Source: a virus
Strand: one strand, 5' to 3'
Virus record (IMG/VR): IMGVR_UViG_3300020469_000054
Coordinates: 1 to 58,506 of that record
Length of the DNA: 58,506 bases
Each line of letters starts with the position of its first letter. The stretch's first letter is position 1. Of the stretch, positions 35,948 through 51,763 are shown in pieces. The position numbers were made by a program, and so were the translations under genes. The notes beneath the pieces were generated by a model. It was not told the DNA's origin. It searched no databases and saw nothing but the letters and a program-made list of their open reading frames with translations.

Positions 35948-36514
35948 TTATGTAGCACCTCTTATCTTATATAAATTAAATGCAACTGATATTCTATCTT
36001 CATTAGATTTACTAGGTTCTACATCATGTTCCAACCAAGAAGGAAAATATATTATCATTCCTTCCTCTACATTAATATAATTATATTCATGTCCATCATT
36101 AAAATAACGATTGTCTGTCATTGAATGCTGTAATACACCTCTAGGATCCCACAATCTAATCCTACCACAATTTTTTGGTGCTTTAATATAATATACACCA
36201 CATAAAAATATACGACTATCAAGATGTGTATGTCTACTATTATAATTTCCTTTCTTATTAATATTAATCCAGTTATGAATAGAGAAGTCCTCTGATTTAA
36301 AAGGTTTATCTTCTCTCATTGGTACATGTTCTATAACTTCTCTAGCAAATTCCGTATCTTCTAATTCAACAGGGGATTGCCACCCACCAACATTAGATAC
36401 ATTAGCAGACTCATGCTCAGATTGTAGTTTATATACTTGCTTCGTTAATTTTTCATTATCTAGATTGAGATGATCAATCCAGACAGGAGTTGAAAAAAGA
36501 GATTCAATATACAT
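35948..36514 (-). CDS. 2OG-Fe(II) oxygenase (PF13759-type)
   Basis: 188 residues starting one base inside the halogenase stop (TAATG). 'NYNSRHTHLDSRIFLCGVYY' gives H95 and H97, 'IIYFPSWLEHDVEPS' gives H163, then R174 and 'ISVAFNLY'. Closest to the textbook pattern among the six dioxygenases in the window. It follows the halogenase so closely that a shared pathway is plausible. Confidence 0.88.
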   Translation of the reverse strand: MYIESLFSTPVWIDHLNLDNEKLTKQVYKLQSEHESANVSNVGGWQSPVELEDTEFAREVIEHVPMREDKPFKSEDFSIHNWININKKGNYNSRHTHLDSRIFLCGVYYIKAPKNCGRIRLWDPRGVLQHSMTDNRYFNDGHEYNYINVEEGMIIYFPSWLEHDVEPSKSNEDRISVAFNLYKIRGAT

Positions 36515-38004
36515 TAAATAGACTCTAAATATTCTTTATGATTTATAGATGACATGTATATCTGATGCTTAAGATGTTGCAACGCATCATGTGTGTCTTT
36601 AGCCATTTCCATTACACCTCTATTTTCTAAAATCTTAGAATAACTTTCTTTATTACACTTACCATGACCATTTGTAACCTTAAAGAAATTATCATGATTA
36701 AAAATATCAAAAGGCATAGAATCTACATTTAAAAAATCTTCTGATATTTTATCAGACATAGTTTTAATTTTATCTGGTCTCTCATGCGTCATATACCTCC
36801 AAAAATCTGAATCTGTCCTACCAGAATCATAACAATATCTCAAGAACAAATAGACTCTATCATAAAAATTTCTCATCTCTTGATTGTAATTATCAATATC
36901 AAATTGAAATATTTTAAAATTAAATCTATTAGTAAAATTTTGCATCTGATAAATTGCATGATGTACATTGGTAGCCTCTAATGGTTCTGTAAATCCACTT
37001 GATAAACCAACGCACATACAATTTCCTATCCATTGGTCATGCCAATATCCACTTTCAAATGGTATTATCTTATCAGTACTTAAATTTGTATCATAATTTT
37101 CTTGTAAGAATATATCAAATTTATCTAATGCTTCTTGATCACTTGTAAACTCCGTTGAAAATAGATAACCTGCTCCTATTCTATTTCTCAATGGAACTTG
37201 CAATATCCATCCATTATCTGTAGCTTCTGATGTAGTAGTAACTGGTATTGTTTTATGTTCACGAAAAATTGGATTTGGAATACACCTATTTAAAGGCAAC
37301 CAATCACTTGTATCTAACCACTTATTATTATCTAACTTTTTAAAGAGTAATTTACTAAAACCTGTGGCATCAATAAAGAAATCACCATCATATTCACCCC
37401 TATTGCCAATTACTTGTTGTATATGCCCATTTTTATCCTTAGTAATATCTACAATTATATCATCAATGATGGTGAGTCTATCTTTATACTTGTCAAGTAT
37501 ATACTTACTAGTTAATACTCCATCTATATGTAAGGTATATGAACCTGAATTCAGGATATTTAATGGTACTCTATTATCATCCAATAACTTATTACTATAA
37601 GTATCATCATTATCATAACAATCATTTGCTACTCCATACGCTCCTTCAAATCCATAAGTATTCCATCTCTCATCAAGACAAGCAAAAGGATGATAGAAAT
37701 GACTACCATCCCCAGTCCAATTTTTAAACTTCAACCCTAATTTTACTGTTGCATTACAATTTTTGATTAATTCTTCTGGAGTTATCCCAACACGTTCTAA
37801 ATACGTTATCATCATCGGTGTTAGACTCTCACCTATGCCTATATTCGGCTTAGCATGATTATATACAACTGATACTTCGACTGAATCCCCCCAATACGCT
37901 TTTAACCAAGTTGAAACTATTGCTCCTGCTGTTCCTCCACCGACTACTACGAATTTATAAGGGGCACTCTTTCTACTTAGAGATCTTTTGTACTCCCCCA
38001 TCAT
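36514..38004 (-). CDS. FAD-dependent halogenase, VirX1-like
   Basis: 496 residues of the tryptophan-halogenase fold. The FAD loop 'VVVGGGTAGAIVSTWLK' (GGGTAG 22-27), 'GIGESLTPMMITYLERVGI', the catalytic lysine K88 in 'NATVKLGLKF' and the glutamate E343 in 'FTEPLEATNVHHA' are all present, so it should form hypohalous acid and a lysine haloamine. The WxWxIP motif is altered to 'GWILQVPLRNR' (W266, L268, P271). VirX1 of cyanophage Syn10, a described viral halogenase of broad substrate range, is the natural comparison. Native substrate unknown. FADH2 must come from a host or phage reductase not seen here. Confidence 0.9.
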   Translation of the reverse strand: MMGEYKRSLSRKSAPYKFVVVGGGTAGAIVSTWLKAYWGDSVEVSVVYNHAKPNIGIGESLTPMMITYLERVGITPEELIKNCNATVKLGLKFKNWTGDGSHFYHPFACLDERWNTYGFEGAYGVANDCYDNDDTYSNKLLDDNRVPLNILNSGSYTLHIDGVLTSKYILDKYKDRLTIIDDIIVDITKDKNGHIQQVIGNRGEYDGDFFIDATGFSKLLFKKLDNNKWLDTSDWLPLNRCIPNPIFREHKTIPVTTTSEATDNGWILQVPLRNRIGAGYLFSTEFTSDQEALDKFDIFLQENYDTNLSTDKIIPFESGYWHDQWIGNCMCVGLSSGFTEPLEATNVHHAIYQMQNFTNRFNFKIFQFDIDNYNQEMRNFYDRVYLFLRYCYDSGRTDSDFWRYMTHERPDKIKTMSDKISEDFLNVDSMPFDIFNHDNFFKVTNGHGKCNKESYSKILENRGVMEMAKDTHDALQHLKHQIYMSSINHKEYLESI

Positions 38005-41393: not shown

Positions 41394-41849
41394 TCATTTA
41401 CCTCGTTTAAATTTATATAGTGAATTCCCACCAAAGATTTTATTCCCTTCAGTATCTTCACCTCGGTCTCTACTATTAAGACCATCTCCAGTTAAATGAA
41501 TCTCAGCAATAAGTTTAGCACCTCTAACAATACACTTATCTTCAGATAGGAGCTTCCCGTGCCATCCATTATCACTTCGTTTAAAAATCATATCACAATT
41601 TTCACATCTTGTCCACTTAAGATCATAATTTTCAACAATTACTTCAGTATCAGATATCTCTACAATCCTATGATGTCTTTCCCTATAAGGTTTATTAGGT
41701 CCATCTCTTCTATAATAGTTCTTAGATCTATACCCACCATCAATCTCTTCCCACGAAACACACAGTTGAGCATATTCTGTAGGATTTGATTGTGCTTGTC
41801 TTATATTATTATAATTTCCTAAAAGGTATTCTTCAAAATCACTCGTCAT
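41394..41849 (-). CDS. cpeT: CpeT-like phycobiliprotein lyase
   Basis: I take ATG at 41849 (151 residues; 11-base overlap with CP12), since the longer frame adds only translated overlap. The family pattern is readable: 'EEYLLGNYNNIRQAQSNP' (G-x-F/Y-x-N-x-x-Q-A), 'PYRERHHRIVE' (Y-R-x-R), 'VENYDL' and the C-terminal 'DTEGNKIFGG'. CpeT-type proteins attach or chaperone phycoerythrobilin on phycoerythrin; phage homologues are truncated and their activity is unclear. It sits in a cassette with CP12. Confidence 0.85.
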   Translation of the reverse strand: MTSDFEEYLLGNYNNIRQAQSNPTEYAQLCVSWEEIDGGYRSKNYYRRDGPNKPYRERHHRIVEISDTEVIVENYDLKWTRCENCDMIFKRSDNGWHGKLLSEDKCIVRGAKLIAEIHLTGDGLNSRDRGEDTEGNKIFGGNSLYKFKRGK

Positions 41850-42105
41850 ATACTCTACATTCAAAAGCATCAGGATGATTGTCACAATAGACTTCTAAAT
41901 GTGAATCTTCATGCCTTGTATGGTAATCATTAATCTTACCATCATTCTTATCTACTTTATCATCCTTATGATATTCATCATACTCTGCATGGACATCTTT
42001 TAGATCTGCCTCACTATACTCTAACATACCATGATTGATATGCTCTTTGTGATCTTTAGGATCAAGATAAACTTCATGATCTAAATCGTGTTGTTTTTCT
42101 GTCAT
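41839..42105 (-). CDS. cp12: CP12-like Calvin-cycle regulator
   Basis: 88 residues, His/Asp/Glu-rich and probably disordered up to residue 68. It ends 'LEVYCDNHPDAFECRVYDE', the C-terminal CP12 element: two Cys separated by eight residues followed by R-x-Y-D/E, which docks into the active site of GAPDH. CP12 clamps GAPDH with phosphoribulokinase; phage copies are thought to turn down the Calvin cycle so that NADPH feeds nucleotide synthesis. The N-terminal Cys pair that binds phosphoribulokinase in many CP12s is missing. First gene of a late unit with CpeT. Confidence 0.8.
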   Translation of the reverse strand: MTEKQHDLDHEVYLDPKDHKEHINHGMLEYSEADLKDVHAEYDEYHKDDKVDKNDGKINDYHTRHEDSHLEVYCDNHPDAFECRVYDE

Positions 42106-42145: not shown

Positions 42146-43540
42146 TTAGGTTGGATTTTGTGGTATCGAATCTCTGTAAACCAACATTTCGGTATCCATA
42201 CTCTTTCCATCATACTTATGTCTAACTCCTCCAATAACATATCTACCACTATACTTTCTATCTCTCACCATCTTATCACCCTTAAGTTTTGTTGCAGGGA
42301 TATTGATATCTACACCATATCCAGCATATAAATCCACATTTCCAGGAACAGTTATTAATAACTGAAGATTCTTAAGTGACTGCACTCTTAAATGCTGGTA
42401 GGCAGCCATTGGTGCTGCATTATTATAGACTTTAGTATCTCCTGTCTCTTTTGCTTTATCAAATATTCTATTAGGTTTTAAAACATACTTAATTCTTCTT
42501 GGATGTAAAACCATTCCCCTAGTAGCAGTTCCATATGACTCTACTGGGTTAGATCCACCTGTAATATGAGACATCTTAGACCACTCATCTGATATATTAG
42601 TTACATATGTTGGTCCTGCAGTATTATGCTCTGGTGATACCTCAGAATTTGGAATAGCAATTGGATCTAAAGCAACTACATTAACTGCCCATGCACCATT
42701 TCGCATTCCACGTAGATAGTTAGTTTCTTCTGGGAATACTATACTCTTAATTCTCAAATGATCATTTCCTATATCATCACTTTGTTTAGGTTCATAACTA
42801 TACCGATATAATCTTGCTATACCTTGTGCTGGATCAGTCTTAGTATCATAATCTTGATTATTAACATCCTCAATTATTTTATCAATAGATTTGAAATGAA
42901 ATCCAAAAGTATTCTCCCAGAATAAGTATCCATTTTGATCTTGACCTCTAACAGATCTTTGTCCTATCCAATAGATTGTATCAAATGCTCTCCAATTGCA
43001 AGCAATAAACTTATGATCATTATTAGAATCTTCAATATAAACCTTTTTACTAGTTAATTTTGCACCACCCCCATCTGGTTGACCTTGCATACCACCAGTA
43101 CCTAAAAGATAAGTAACCATATCTTTTGCTCTATTTGAACCAGAATCTTTAAATATTACCTCAGATGCCCCAAATATATTAGTACATTCATTAAGTAGAA
43201 ACTCATAACTTACAGCTTTTACAATATATGCCTCTGCATTACCAGATCTTGCTCTACTATCAATAGAATATGTAACAAGAGACCATGCTTTAGCTCCTGT
43301 AGATGTATCAATTCTAATTATCCATTCTTCACTACCAGTAAAACTATTAATTAATCCTGCACTATCCTGCAAAACAATCTCTGCAGAGATACCTGCACTA
43401 TCAATACCTTCAGTAATATTACATGCCATAACAAAATCTTCTAAACTACTGGCACCGTCAGAGTTTTCTAAGAATTGCCCATCTCTCCTAACCTTAAGAG
43501 AAAAACTTACATCACTAGCACTTTGCCTTAAACTTGCCAT
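42146..43540 (-). CDS. Baseplate hub protein, gp27-like
   Basis: 464 residues. Begins 'MASLRQSASDVSFSLKVRRD', with repeated tail-tube-like strands and a central mixed domain. Position is that of T4 gp27 (391 residues), between the tape-measure-like proteins and the gp5 needle, and gp27-type hub proteins pair with gp5. The call rests mainly on position and size. Stop and start overlap by one base with its upstream neighbour. Confidence 0.65.
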   Translation of the reverse strand: MASLRQSASDVSFSLKVRRDGQFLENSDGASSLEDFVMACNITEGIDSAGISAEIVLQDSAGLINSFTGSEEWIIRIDTSTGAKAWSLVTYSIDSRARSGNAEAYIVKAVSYEFLLNECTNIFGASEVIFKDSGSNRAKDMVTYLLGTGGMQGQPDGGGAKLTSKKVYIEDSNNDHKFIACNWRAFDTIYWIGQRSVRGQDQNGYLFWENTFGFHFKSIDKIIEDVNNQDYDTKTDPAQGIARLYRYSYEPKQSDDIGNDHLRIKSIVFPEETNYLRGMRNGAWAVNVVALDPIAIPNSEVSPEHNTAGPTYVTNISDEWSKMSHITGGSNPVESYGTATRGMVLHPRRIKYVLKPNRIFDKAKETGDTKVYNNAAPMAAYQHLRVQSLKNLQLLITVPGNVDLYAGYGVDINIPATKLKGDKMVRDRKYSGRYVIGGVRHKYDGKSMDTEMLVYRDSIPQNPT

Positions 43541-45666
43541 TAGTTAAACACCTTTAGAGGATTATTTCCAGAATTTAATGCAGCAATTAAATCCTGTGTA
43601 TGTGTATCACCAGTAGGTATAATAGTTGGTTTCCTACTCTTTGCTGCATTCTCTGCCGAAGCAGTTTGTTCTGCATGTTTAGCAGCAACCAATTTAACCT
43701 TTTCATTGGCCATTTGAGCAAGTTCTTGGACTTTCTGAATCATAGTAAGTTGTGCTTGCTTCTTCTCTGTCTTTGCAGAATCAACATTTTCTTTAGTATC
43801 CTTGATGGTCTTTGTGCTATTAAACGATCCAGTACTCTCATTATATTTAATATTAGCTAATTGCTCTTTAAGGATAGTGGGATTAAATGCTTGACTAAAA
43901 GCATTCGATAACGAAGAAATTTGAGATTGTATACTACCACCAGTTTTTTCACTTTGATCTTTACTATCATCACCTTTATTAAAGGCATCATCAAATTGCG
44001 TTGCCATAGTTTGCAATGCATTTGCTGGATCTTTAGATGTATCAGCTTTAATCTCAGACTTGATAGGTCGTCCACTAACATTACTCATAGCCTTATACAT
44101 CATTTCTGGTGTAATATGTGCTTTATTAACTCCATCTCCAGCATAATAACTTTCACCCTTTGAAACTTCACGGAAATGTCCTTGCATATTCCCAGGAACA
44201 GGAATTGCTGCCCACACTCTAGATAAGTTTTCCATAGCCTTAGCAGGGTTATTCCGCATCATATCAGGTGTTACTTGTGCTTGACCTCTACCAATTAGAT
44301 ATTCTGCAATCTTTGTTTGATTCTTCTTATTATAAATGTCTTTCTTAGGATCTAATCCAACTGCCCTTGCTCTTTCATTCAAAAATCGTGGTAAGTTTTG
44401 ATACATACCAACAGCACCTGTTGCTTGACTTGCAACATCAGATATTGTCATCTTAGACGCACCTTTAAGTTCTGTATTAGGATACATAGAATCCCATCCA
44501 GCAGCACCACCTTCATACTTTGCAATAAGATCTAATACTGGAGCATATACATGTCCACCCTCTTCAAAACCAGCATCAATTACACGTGAATTGCCACCAA
44601 AGAAAGTATCCATATTGAATCCCATATTCTGACCTTCGGTCATCCTTTGACCCATCAAATCAGGATTCACTCTTGTTGCTGGTGTATCAATAGGAACTAC
44701 ATAACCACCACCTGCTCTTTGTGCAACATATTCTGTGCCGTGACCTATAAATGCAGTAGATTTACCACCGTCTAATGACACTGGATATCCAGACATCGGT
44801 CCTTGAATAAATCCACCCTTTGCCATCTCTATTACACCATCTCTTCCAGGAGCTCCATCAGCACCAGCAGCAGATTCTTCAAGATCTCCTTTAGTCATTG
44901 CTTGATAGGCTAACAAACCACCACCTATAAGTAGACCAGCTACACCTGCTCTCTTTAATGCTTTCTTCAATTTCTTCTTACTTCCTGTTAGAGCTTTAAC
45001 TAGCAATTTAAATACAGCACCCATATCATCTAATATTTTTAGTGGATTTGTCAACCATCGAATTGCAACAAATAATCCTGCAAAATCAACAAGTCCTCCC
45101 ATCAATCCCTTTAATCTATCCCACCAATTATTAGAAGGATCAAAAAAATTGTATAGATTATCAATTAACCCAACTATTCGATCACCAAGAAATGTTGCTA
45201 CTGATTTAAAAAACTTTCCTAAAACTTCTACAGTCTTCTTTATCTTAGCAGTATTTTGAGGATCACTCAACCACTTCATAATAGGTTGAGCAAGAGCCAA
45301 TACCATAAAATCTTTAAACAAATTAAATATCGCTTCCAAGAAACCAGGCATTTTTGGTCCTTCTAACTCTTCAACCTCTACAATTTCTTCGTCATCATCA
45401 GTTTGAGGTTTTATAAATGAAGGAGTAAATCCAGTATCAATATCTGAAGTTATACTCTCAAATATACGTCTTTGCGAATCAACAAAATCCTTAAGAACAT
45501 TTCCAATAGAATTTATAGTTGACCCTTGATTATTAGTTGCTTGTATATTTCTATTAAGAGATTCTACCAATCCTTTCTGTGCTGGATCTTTTGTACGAGC
45601 TTTCTCAGGTTTTACAAACTTGTAAAAATCAATCTTTGCTGGTTTTTTAGCGACTACTTTTGGCAT
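43540..45666 (-). CDS. Tape-measure-like hub protein with lysozyme-like domain
   Basis: 708 residues. Residues 100-230 are hydrophobic helices shared with the next gene (W-L/I-S/A-D-P-x-N ... W-x-R-L-K-G ... L-x-N-P). Residues 280-330 hold a 'GPMSGYPVSLDGGKSTAFIG' / 'EYVAQRAGG' segment typical of tape-measure ends. Residues 375-525 look like a lysozyme or transglycosylase: 'LDLIAKYEGGAAGWDS' with candidate catalytic E385, then 'GAVGMYQ' and 'IAEYLIGRGQ'. It would open peptidoglycan during injection, the job of the gp5 lysozyme in T4. Confidence 0.78.
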   Translation of the reverse strand: MPKVVAKKPAKIDFYKFVKPEKARTKDPAQKGLVESLNRNIQATNNQGSTINSIGNVLKDFVDSQRRIFESITSDIDTGFTPSFIKPQTDDDEEIVEVEELEGPKMPGFLEAIFNLFKDFMVLALAQPIMKWLSDPQNTAKIKKTVEVLGKFFKSVATFLGDRIVGLIDNLYNFFDPSNNWWDRLKGLMGGLVDFAGLFVAIRWLTNPLKILDDMGAVFKLLVKALTGSKKKLKKALKRAGVAGLLIGGGLLAYQAMTKGDLEESAAGADGAPGRDGVIEMAKGGFIQGPMSGYPVSLDGGKSTAFIGHGTEYVAQRAGGGYVVPIDTPATRVNPDLMGQRMTEGQNMGFNMDTFFGGNSRVIDAGFEEGGHVYAPVLDLIAKYEGGAAGWDSMYPNTELKGASKMTISDVASQATGAVGMYQNLPRFLNERARAVGLDPKKDIYNKKNQTKIAEYLIGRGQAQVTPDMMRNNPAKAMENLSRVWAAIPVPGNMQGHFREVSKGESYYAGDGVNKAHITPEMMYKAMSNVSGRPIKSEIKADTSKDPANALQTMATQFDDAFNKGDDSKDQSEKTGGSIQSQISSLSNAFSQAFNPTILKEQLANIKYNESTGSFNSTKTIKDTKENVDSAKTEKKQAQLTMIQKVQELAQMANEKVKLVAAKHAEQTASAENAAKSRKPTIIPTGDTHTQDLIAALNSGNNPLKVFN

Positions 45667-47645
45667 TACTTACTAAGCAAAGGTGAAGGTCTTGTTACAA
45701 TTACTTCTGCAGGACTATTTATTGGTACCGCAGTAGGTACTGCTTCTGCAAACGCAATTGGAATTGGAACAGGAACAGATTCAATCTCATTAGACATCAT
45801 AGCAAACTGTGCAGAGAATGAAGGGATCTTCTTCTCAACACTTTTAAATGGTGATGCTGGAGAAACCCCACCAACTGAAGTTGGATTTATAAACGATGGT
45901 GAAGGTTGACCATGATTACTAGAAGATCCTATTAAACCACCCATTGACTTCTCTTCCATCTGACTAGGAAACATTACTGCACCTTTACTTTGTCCAGCAA
46001 GCATAGTTACAAGTTCTCCTAAATCAGGCAATTTACTTATAACACCCTCAATCTTACCTTTAACACTCATTGCACCAGGTATTAGATCTATCAAACCTTC
46101 TTCTGCTCCCATTACACTCTCAGGAAACATATCTCTACCAAACATATAAGCATCAAGTGCTAAAGAACCTGGCCACATACCAGCAATATCCAATGCTCCA
46201 GATATTGATTCAATTATACCTCCAACTAAATCTCCACTAGCAAATCTATCATAAGCAAAAAGTAAGTTAAATAAACCACCAATCCAAGGCAATGCTTTAG
46301 CACCCATTTTCTTAGCTATACTTCCAGCACCCTCAAGAGAAGTAAGACCAATTCCCTTCAACAACTTCTCTAAACCAGGAATCTTCATCAAATTTTTGAT
46401 CAATGAATCTTTCATAGCTAAGATGGGTTTCATAGGTGCTTCTAAGAATCCCATAAGAGGAGTCATTATTTTTTTACTAATACCATCCTGTACGTTTTTA
46501 GCCTGTTTACCAAACCAATCGCCAGCAACTGCTGTTGCATTATCATATTGTTTTCTTAAACTTTGACCAAAATCGGCCATCCGTTTCATATTGTTATTAA
46601 AACCTTTAACAGCCCAATCACTCACAGAATCAATAAGATTGCCAGTAGAAGTTGTTATTTTATTCCACCAACCACTCTTAGGTTTTACACCTTTAATCTT
46701 TCTTGCTTGACTAAGTGCATCCTTTACATTAGCTCCACCATCTCTTGCTTTTCTAAATGCACGTATTTGATCATCATCTAAACCCAAATCAGAAAGTTTA
46801 ATTTCCGACTTAAGTTTCTTTCTTATAGTGCCATCAGCATCAACTATATTCTTCTTTCGTACCTGTTTAAAATTACCATCCGCATCTACCCCACCACCTT
46901 TCTTCTTTGTTTTTACTCCATCATCTGCATCTGGTCCTTTAAATGGGTTTATATCTGATAACAGACCAGCAATCCAAACAATATCACCAATTAATGAAAA
47001 AGGATTCAGTAGATACTTTATTCCTGCAAGACCTACTAACAGTTTCCCAAAACCTTTTAATCGTGACCAAAAATCAGCTTCTGGATCTATTAAAGTGGTA
47101 AATCCATCAAGTACATTACCAGCAAAACCTCCCATCCATTTAGCTAGAGTGCCAAATACAACACCTGCTTTTTCAAGAGTATCTCTAAGTCTCTCACTAT
47201 TAGCAGGATCTGCTATCCAAGCAAGAACATCCTTAGCAATAATTAAACCAACAATATCCTTTAAGAAACTAACAAATGGTGCTATTGCATTATTAATCCA
47301 TTTCATAAATGGATTTTCTATTTCTTCTATCTCTTCTTCTTCATCATCTGTAGGTTCAGGTTTAGTAGATGTAGTTGTTACAGGTTTCTTACCTTCCTGT
47401 CTGTTTTCTGCTGCCTGATCCCTTTGACGACGTAATTTCTTTTTCTTTTTTTTCTTTTGTTCGTCTAAAAATTTTATATAAGCATTATTAGATATCACAG
47501 CAACTTCTAGTGTTGCTCCAATCCCCTCTACAGTTTTCCCAATCCTATTCTGAGCAACTACAAGGTTACCTGAAGCTTTAGTCGCAGCAGTAGCAGTAGA
47601 TGCCACTATTGGACTCACAAATTTATATGATACTATTTTAGCCAC
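45666..47645 (-). CDS. Tape-measure-like structural protein (659 aa), GTG start
   Basis: Starts at GTG 47645, eight bases inside the tail of the gp26-extension frame. A helical N-terminus is followed by a poly-Lys/Arg segment ('EQKKKKKKKLRRQRDQ'), an acidic linker, then the helical membrane-like domain shared with 43540-45666, and amphipathic helices to the end. Place in the tail module, directly after the chaperone-like gene, fits a tape measure or hub core (T4 gp29 analogue). Paralogous to its downstream neighbour. Confidence 0.72.
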   Translation of the reverse strand: MAKIVSYKFVSPIVASTATAATKASGNLVVAQNRIGKTVEGIGATLEVAVISNNAYIKFLDEQKKKKKKKLRRQRDQAAENRQEGKKPVTTTSTKPEPTDDEEEEIEEIENPFMKWINNAIAPFVSFLKDIVGLIIAKDVLAWIADPANSERLRDTLEKAGVVFGTLAKWMGGFAGNVLDGFTTLIDPEADFWSRLKGFGKLLVGLAGIKYLLNPFSLIGDIVWIAGLLSDINPFKGPDADDGVKTKKKGGGVDADGNFKQVRKKNIVDADGTIRKKLKSEIKLSDLGLDDDQIRAFRKARDGGANVKDALSQARKIKGVKPKSGWWNKITTSTGNLIDSVSDWAVKGFNNNMKRMADFGQSLRKQYDNATAVAGDWFGKQAKNVQDGISKKIMTPLMGFLEAPMKPILAMKDSLIKNLMKIPGLEKLLKGIGLTSLEGAGSIAKKMGAKALPWIGGLFNLLFAYDRFASGDLVGGIIESISGALDIAGMWPGSLALDAYMFGRDMFPESVMGAEEGLIDLIPGAMSVKGKIEGVISKLPDLGELVTMLAGQSKGAVMFPSQMEEKSMGGLIGSSSNHGQPSPSFINPTSVGGVSPASPFKSVEKKIPSFSAQFAMMSNEIESVPVPIPIAFAEAVPTAVPINSPAEVIVTRPSPLLSK

Positions 47646-47829
47646 TAACTTGTTGCTCCTTGTAACGTCGTTCCTCTTCTTTTAGGAATGTTATTAACAT
47701 ATTAACGTAAATTTCCTTCTCCCAAGGCATCAAGTTTTCAATATATTCAATATTCCACTTGTGGTGGTGCATTAATGCAAAATTAGCCTCATAATAGGTT
47801 CTTAAGTTATTGTGTAGAAGGGCTACCCG
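47638..47829 (-). CDS. -1 frame extension of gp26 (tail-chaperone-like)
   Basis: Open -1 frame beginning at the slippery heptamer in gp26 and ending at TAA 47638, 63 residues. It contains 'LRTYYEANFALMHHHKWNIE' and 'ENLMPWEKEIYVNMLITFLK', the pattern of the C-terminal part of frameshifted tail-assembly chaperones. There is no ATG, GTG or TTG in the first 19 codons, though the conserved-looking sequence begins there; ATG 47772 would lose it. Best read as a gp26 fusion of about 299 residues by -1 frameshifting; a separate 44-residue protein is the alternative. Confidence 0.62.
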   Translation of the reverse strand, partial: RVALLHNNLRTYYEANFALMHHHKWNIEYIENLMPWEKEIYVNMLITFLKEEERRYKEQQVSG

Positions 47830-48536
47830 AAAAAACTGGATAATCCCTCAAGAACAACTTCAGATTTCACTTTTGTTTTGGGATTGGTCACTTCAATGGT
47901 GTGTGATAATTTAGGCATTGTTTCAAAAAAGGTTTGAATCAATTGAAACTGCTTAGTATTCATATCACCAAAGAATTCCATTAATTCCTTCTTTGGTTGA
48001 TCCTTACATGGATAAACTTGCTGAGAATCAGCAATACTTTCAGCACAACCTGCTGCAAGCTCAAATATTTGATCCATATCAGTTGCACCTTCACCTGTAA
48101 AGTTTGATTTAACAAACATATCCAAACTAGGATATCCCATCGTTAAAATAACATCATCACTCAATTTAAGAGTTTTAGTATGTGTTGGATCCTTTCTAAC
48201 TTCAATATCATCTAATGGAATTGTTACTTTCACATCAGTCTCATTATCATCTGGACATGTAACAGATACATCAACATTCTCACCAACAGATCTGGTGCGA
48301 ATTTTCAAGAAAAGAAATTCAATATCGAATGTAGATAAATTATTTACACTCTTCAAATTAGTGCATGATAAAAGAATATTCTTAACTGCGTTGATTAGAT
48401 CTTTTTGCTCACCTGTTTCCATTGCAAGAAATAGAAGTTTTTCTTCTTTTACTAGAAATGGTCTATATTTAACAGTTTTACCAGACGAAGGTAATTTTAA
48501 ATGATATTCAGGTACATTTAGCTTTGGTAATGCCAT
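47823..48536 (-). CDS. 26: Baseplate hub assembly protein gp26-like
   Basis: 237 residues, near the size of T4 gp26 (208). Begins 'MALPKLNVPEYHLKLPSSGK' and contains 'YRPFLVKEEKLLFLAMETG' with the acidic and Cys-bearing middle typical of the T4 baseplate gp26 family. Acts in hub assembly before the tape measure. The last codons contain a T-TTT-TTC heptamer, so a fraction of ribosomes may read on into the -1 frame (see the extension). Late box CCTAAATA 22 bases upstream. Confidence 0.82.
   Translation of the reverse strand: MALPKLNVPEYHLKLPSSGKTVKYRPFLVKEEKLLFLAMETGEQKDLINAVKNILLSCTNLKSVNNLSTFDIEFLFLKIRTRSVGENVDVSVTCPDDNETDVKVTIPLDDIEVRKDPTHTKTLKLSDDVILTMGYPSLDMFVKSNFTGEGATDMDQIFELAAGCAESIADSQQVYPCKDQPKKELMEFFGDMNTKQFQLIQTFFETMPKLSHTIEVTNPKTKVKSEVVLEGLSSFFG
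47829..47835 (-). promoter_or_regulatory. Candidate -1 frameshift site T-TTT-TTC
   Basis: On the minus strand the gp26 frame reads AGT-TTT-TTC-GGG-TAG. TTTTTTC fits the X-XXY-YYZ slippery rule, with a stop six bases after it and a small GTAG/CTAC stem just downstream. Confidence 0.6.
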
Positions 48537-50851: not shown

Positions 50852-51763
50852 ATGGCATATTTCGATCAATTACCAGATGTATTTGTTGCAGATTCAGGTC
50901 AAGAAGAAAAAGTACGGTATAAGTTAGTAAAAAATATCTTTAGGAGAGTAATTCTTCCTGAAAAGATGGCAAAATATGCCACTCTATTTAATGAATACTA
51001 TATTCCTGATGGAATGAGACCTGATATGGTCGCACAAAAGTTTTATGGTGATCCAGAGTTGGATTGGATTATTTTACTATCTAACAATATAACTGATGTA
51101 TACACTCAATGGCCAAAAAGAGAAAATAACCTAACTTCATTTGTTTCCAATAAATATGATGATCCAGATTCAATACATCACTGGGAAACTATGGAAGTGA
51201 AAAGTGGTGATATATCAATAGCAAAAGCTGGTATTGAAGTTAATGAATCTTATAGAGGTATTGATATAGACGGTAATCCTTTAACTAAAGAGCAATCAGT
51301 ATATCCAGTATCAAACTATGAACATGAATCCTACTTAAATGAAAAGAATCGATTAATTTCAATACCAACAAGTAGATTAGTTGATTTCTATGAAGAACAA
51401 TTTAAAGATTTAGTTGATTATAAACCTCATGATGAAGTTGATGACTTTGGACGTAAGAGGACACATATTTCACTAGCATCTGCATTCTTGGATAGAGATG
51501 CATTTAGAAGAAGTGCGTTATCTAATATACAAGCAGCAATTACAAATACTAGTGGATCCGTCACATTCGACTATGGAGATGGTAATCTTGTGCAAGGAGT
51601 TGCTGGTACTACTGCTACTGTAACTGTTGATAATACATCTAGCACTTCATCCACATCTAACACTTCATCCACATCTAGCACTTCATCTACATCTAACACT
51701 TCATCTAGCAGTAGTAGCAGTAGTAGTGAATCTTCATCTAGTGGGTCTGGATATGGTTACTAA
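50852..51763 (+). CDS. 53: Baseplate wedge protein gp53 with Ser/Thr-rich tail
   Basis: 303 residues against 196 in T4. 'MAYFDQLPDVFVADSGQEEK' and 'MVAQKFYGDPELDWIILLSN' are the gp53 signature; the wedge core ends near residue 230. The extra C-terminus consists of an 18-base tandem repeat encoding T-S-(S/N)-T-S-S four times, then a serine run and GSGYGY. The tail is probably disordered or exposed. Two bases after gp48. Confidence 0.85.
   Translation: MAYFDQLPDVFVADSGQEEKVRYKLVKNIFRRVILPEKMAKYATLFNEYYIPDGMRPDMVAQKFYGDPELDWIILLSNNITDVYTQWPKRENNLTSFVSNKYDDPDSIHHWETMEVKSGDISIAKAGIEVNESYRGIDIDGNPLTKEQSVYPVSNYEHESYLNEKNRLISIPTSRLVDFYEEQFKDLVDYKPHDEVDDFGRKRTHISLASAFLDRDAFRRSALSNIQAAITNTSGSVTFDYGDGNLVQGVAGTTATVTVDNTSSTSSTSNTSSTSSTSSTSNTSSSSSSSSSESSSSGSGYGY
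51635..51706 (+). repeat. 18-base tandem repeat in gp53
   Basis: Four perfectly spaced units of ACATCTAGCACTTCATCC with G/A at position 8 alternating unit by unit and C to T at position 18 in the last two, suggesting a 36-base duplication. In frame, coding for T-S-S/N-T-S-S. Confidence 0.9.

Follow-up and report, generated by a model that had tools for sequence, protein, structure and literature searches.

Phage P2, which has a contractile tail, makes its E and E+E' products by −1 frameshifting at T_TTT_TTG in the gene that precedes the tape measure, and the slippery site of lambda G/G-T, a system unrelated in sequence to gene 26, is G_GGA_AAG. The lambda system likewise yields a short chaperone and a −1 extended long form, and a 2016 recoding review described this G-T tail frameshift as widely conserved, with T4 as the exception (PMC5009743). 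A GTTTTT motif marks the TAC locus of other phage families, Vandenendeviridae and Andersonviridae (PMC12846349). For T4-like phages, Vladimirov, Gautam and Davidson (2022, Virology 566:9-15) described a short TAC gene alongside a longer, fused one, as related in PMC10885494, and poly-T slippery sequences in TAC-N genes, as related in PMC12846349. So far as these two papers convey it, the chaperones concerned, gp26 and gp51, belong to the same protein families as those analysed here, although the title of the 2022 study stresses a mechanism other than frameshifting. Since tail chaperones of T4-like phages have, like poly-T slippery sites, been reported before on that account, the novelty of the present locus is limited; the core idea of a frameshifting T4-like gene 26 has probably been largely described already, contrary to the initial annotation, which knew of nothing of this kind for a T4-type gp26.

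We analysed a viral DNA stretch of 58,506 nucleotides (IMG/VR record IMGVR_UViG_3300020469_000054), referred to in its full length as the window. Gene 26, a tail gene of this marine cyanomyovirus, lies in a locus with the following features.

47823..48536, minus strand: gene 26, encoding gp26, the short form of 237 aa (gpG-like / TAC-N), with PF12322 and phrog_150 matches
47844..47849, minus strand: SD-like GAGGGA, 8 nt upstream of the heptamer, a possible stimulator judged by GAG and SD-match enrichment
47829..47835, minus strand: slippery heptamer T_TTT_TTC, read from the sequence and in phase in all one-gene relatives of the main set (176/176)
47823..47825, minus strand: zero-frame stop TAG of gp26, read from the sequence
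47638..47835, minus strand: −1 frame from the heptamer to its stop, carrying the gp51 domain (T-like / C-terminal extension), assigned by phrog_634, alignment and pN/pS
45666..47645, minus strand: next gene, with a GTG start at 47645 overlapping the end of the gp51 frame, from the sequence and PHROG matches

The 3' end of gp26 (minus strand, 48536..47823) reads GAG GGA TTA TCC AGT TTT TTC GGG TAG, so that a single GGG codon separates the heptamer (47835..47829) from the stop. The −1 frame is open from 47847 and continues for 63 codons after the heptamer to a stop at 47640..47638, giving a predicted gp26-gp51 fusion of 299 aa. The 19 codons past the junction contain no ATG, GTG, TTG, CTG, ATT, ATC or ATA, and, counting from the heptamer, the first start is the ATG at codon 22 ('ALMHHHK'). 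The coordinates and counts of the initial annotation, including the heptamer at the gp26 end, the 63 open codons and the 19 −1-frame codons devoid of a start, were thereby confirmed. Profile matches placed gp26 in PF12322 over the whole domain (residues 9-236, E 1.1e-72) and in phrog_150 (E 3e-83), and assigned the −1 frame to phrog_634, 'gp51 baseplate hub assembly catalyst' (E 7.1e-31); a search of NCBIfam returned nothing useful. The extension is thus not a new tail but belongs to the known gp51 family.

Conservation of the heptamer was assessed across relatives. In all of the first 79 viral contigs, with gp26 35-95% identical, the gp26 gene ends in NNT TTT TTC or NNT TTT TTT and the −1 frame continues uninterrupted into the gp51 domain; the heptamer was present in 80/80 additional contigs as well as in 16/16 more freshwater contigs. 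In the main set, an in-phase T_TTT_TTY was found in 176/176 one-gene relatives, with the variant T_TTT_TTG in two representatives, phiM9 and P10VF. The isolates bearing the heptamer comprise Syn33, S-ShM2, P-SSM2, S-PM2, phiM19, nt-1, D490 and phiM9 together with P10VF, Milchi, Aeh1, S13, DLP6, YB07, Cr30 and Melnitz. The conservation of heptamer and −1 frame that the initial annotation had proposed to look for was therefore found in the main set and again in the 16 contigs. Loci that lack the heptamer and keep the downstream frame with a good start of its own, named there as the pattern speaking against a frameshift, were absent from the main set and occurred only in Pseudomonas Cygsa01, Vibrio D493 and GR28A, where an ATG overlaps the gp26 stop.

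Among the 102 representatives at 80% identity, the codon supplying the first T of the heptamer varies between AGT, TCT, GAT, GCT, AAT and ACT, indicating that the T is retained while the amino acid changes. Clustering at 50% identity left 22 representatives, all of them with the heptamer. The naive probability of such conservation derived from codon usage, which ignores relatedness, was ~1e-42 for the 102 and ~1e-11 for the 22 representatives. The conservation of the heptamer thus exceeds chance. It is also not forced by the protein, as T4-type two-gene phages with Glu-Phe-Phe retained at the gp26 end use GAR TTC TTT for it; among their readable gp26 ends, T6 included, the heptamer was found in 0/9. 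Within the gp26 genes of the 102 representatives, internal Phe-Phe pairs took the form T_TTT in 4/113 cases, fewer than the 21.8 that codon usage predicts, and slippery runs at such internal positions are seemingly selected against.

Upstream of the heptamer, a conserved Glu four codons before it is encoded by GAG in 63/87 representatives vs 28% elsewhere, and the following Gly by GGA or GGG in 63/101 vs 36%, a preference that creates an SD-like GAGGGA at a distance of 8 nt from the heptamer. A 5-nt SD match upstream of the heptamer was present in 52 representatives vs 26.5 expected, and the GAG/GGA enrichment, weaker at 50% identity, persisted there (p about 0.01). This 8-nt spacing resembles that reported for dnaX. 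Just 3' of the site, RNA stability showed a family-wide peak with a mean z of −1.95 at +12 against a background mostly of −0.8 to +0.4, and downstream hairpins are found in many relatives in clade-specific form, e.g. in P-SSM2. A single universal downstream stem was considered and rejected, since RNAalifold gave no consensus across all representatives or within the largest groups. Compared with the three-part dnaX-type cassette, the SD-like element is thus present and enriched in the family, whereas the stem-loop signal is family-wide (z −1.95) but absent in the window, whose downstream RNA structure is not unusual (z +0.83).

Alternatively, gp51 could be a separate protein, started near the gp26 stop by translational coupling or reinitiation. 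Such an ATG, overlapping the stop or a few bases from it, does exist in many relatives (P-SSM2, nt-1, phiM9, YB07), and databases annotate gp51 as a separately started gene. However, 29/102 representatives, the window included, have no ATG, GTG or TTG before −1-frame codon 14 and yet show conserved residues there. Across 37 distinct loci whose −1 frame lacks these starts up to codon 20, pN/pS over codons 4-20 was 0.39 in that frame and 1.13 and 1.64 in the remaining two, showing that in these loci purifying selection acts on the −1 frame before any start codon is reached. Moreover, the first possible start wanders from codon index 3 to 28 across representatives while the heptamer stays fixed, and for the later starts the SD-like element lies too far upstream. 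Selection at loci devoid of starts, together with the wandering start, disfavours independent initiation as the shared mechanism, and we regard a separately initiated gp51 as improbable; in relatives with an ATG at the gp26 stop, coupling may add a separate gp51 to the frameshift product.

An extra U introduced by transcriptional slippage on the T6 run would join the same two frames, and a run of T6-T8 occurs at the site in every main-set case. Six Ts are, however, short for slippage by RNA polymerase; the run stops at six and is followed by C in 86/102 representatives, and the SD-like element 8 nt upstream is a translational signal, making this explanation a shade less probable even than separate initiation. 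Homopolymer runs are also error-prone in sequencing and assembly, which could split what is really one ordinary fused gene. All main-set relatives nevertheless share this layout, as do the complete genomes of the isolates Syn33, S-PM2, P-SSM2 and Aeh1; such an error is already refuted by these independent genomes, and its probability is vanishingly small.

The relation to T4 was addressed by profile comparison. T4-type gp51 aligns through residues 4-200 with residues 10-235 of the window-family gp26 (E 5e-10) and through residues 197-244 with the −1 domain (E 3e-6); the two alignments meet at the FF of the heptamer. Likewise, in T6 gp51, residues 1-201 match PF12322 and residues 147-246 match phrog_634, and T6 gp26 and T6 gp51, both PF12322 members, are related to each other (E 7e-5). 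Judged by these alignments, T4-type gp51 is a gp26-like domain joined in frame to the same C-terminal domain that the −1 frame encodes. As the two parts meet at the heptamer site, T4 gp26 and gp51 would correspond, respectively, to the predicted short and long products of the single gene in cyanophages and other relatives, and the 'hub assembly catalyst' gp51 can be read concretely as the long form of the chaperone. In Cronobacter phage leB, gp26 and gp51 genes lie in tandem. Predicted models of the window gp26 (pLDDT 86) and of a natural T4-type gp51 (pLDDT 84), the latter modelled in place of the predicted gp26-gp51 fusion, have a similar order of elements with extra C-terminal helices in gp51, and a fold search with gp51 retrieved gp26 proteins. 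A fold link to solved chaperones was not significant, HK97 included: 2ob9 (HK97 gp13) scored highest against gp26 among the PDB matches listed, with a probability of 0.30-0.35, E 2-3 and a TM of 0.39 by target.

The signature of a programmed −1 frameshift is present, as comparison among relatives shows, and a frameshift at T_TTT_TTC by which gene 26 would yield both gp26 and gp26-gp51 is very probable. This reading, already put forward in the initial annotation, is upheld by the conservation of the heptamer, the selection ahead of any start and the in-frame T4-type gp51 fusion with its junction at the heptamer. Most ribosomes would stop at the TAG, releasing gp26 of 237 aa, while a minority would slip by −1 on T_TTT_TTC, the Phe-Phe tRNAs re-pairing on TTT TTT, and produce the 299-aa fusion; frameshift efficiency and fusion protein are what we infer from the signature. 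Family membership and analogy suggest a chaperone function for the gene 26 products. If lambda G/GT and P2 E/E+E' are a guide, the short form may form a coat on the tape measure or hub core, with the long form perhaps recruiting tail subunits through its C-terminal domain. More tentatively, and with somewhat less than even confidence, we propose that a dnaX-like cassette of GAGGGA, T_TTT_TTY and often a hairpin resides in gene 26 across most of the T4 supergroup, that T4 gp26 and gp51 arose by duplication and in-frame fusion, and that an Ackermannviridae-type branch reaches the −1 frame otherwise. As to the order of events, the duplication would have started from a frameshifting ancestor.

The loci lacking the heptamer belong to a small branch at greater distance (Ackermannviridae, Cygsa01, D493). 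Besides Cygsa01, D493 and GR28A, the canonical heptamer is missing from Vibrio Kuja, Salmonella PM10 and Klebsiella Magnus, which also have no ATG at the gp26 stop. In these Ackermannviridae (Kuttervirus PM10, Taipeivirus Magnus, Kujavirus), a gp51-like domain follows gp26 in the −1 frame; the annotations of PM10 and Magnus omit it. The frameshift reading also implies that many cyanophage gp51 genes carry wrong start annotations or were overlooked (Aeh1, S13). At the Aeh1 locus (L183, 2759-2926) and the S13 locus (L184, 2720-2884), the gp51 domain lies in the −1 frame with a heptamer and is unannotated.

The initial annotation had placed tape-measure-like genes directly downstream of gene 26, a placement that was not confirmed: the two downstream genes match PHROGs labelled 'endolysin'. 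They are adjacent large genes at 43540-45666 and 45666-47645 (minus strand) with matches to phrog_790, phrog_1200 and others, each matching both sets. Their products may be related hub or tape-measure-like proteins, the family name being misleading. The tape-measure annotation in Caulobacter phage Cr30 falls on the gene that follows the next small ORF. Elsewhere in the window, a gene for a CpeT-like antenna protein (41394-41885, minus strand; phrog_488), related to host photosynthesis, lies amid the tail genes. A tryptophan halogenase-like gene (35948-38004, minus strand; phrog_2928) adjoins a 2OG-Fe(II) oxygenase gene (phrog_81), and a gp53-like wedge gene (50852-51763, plus strand; phrog_232) carries a long Ser/Thr repeat tail at its end.
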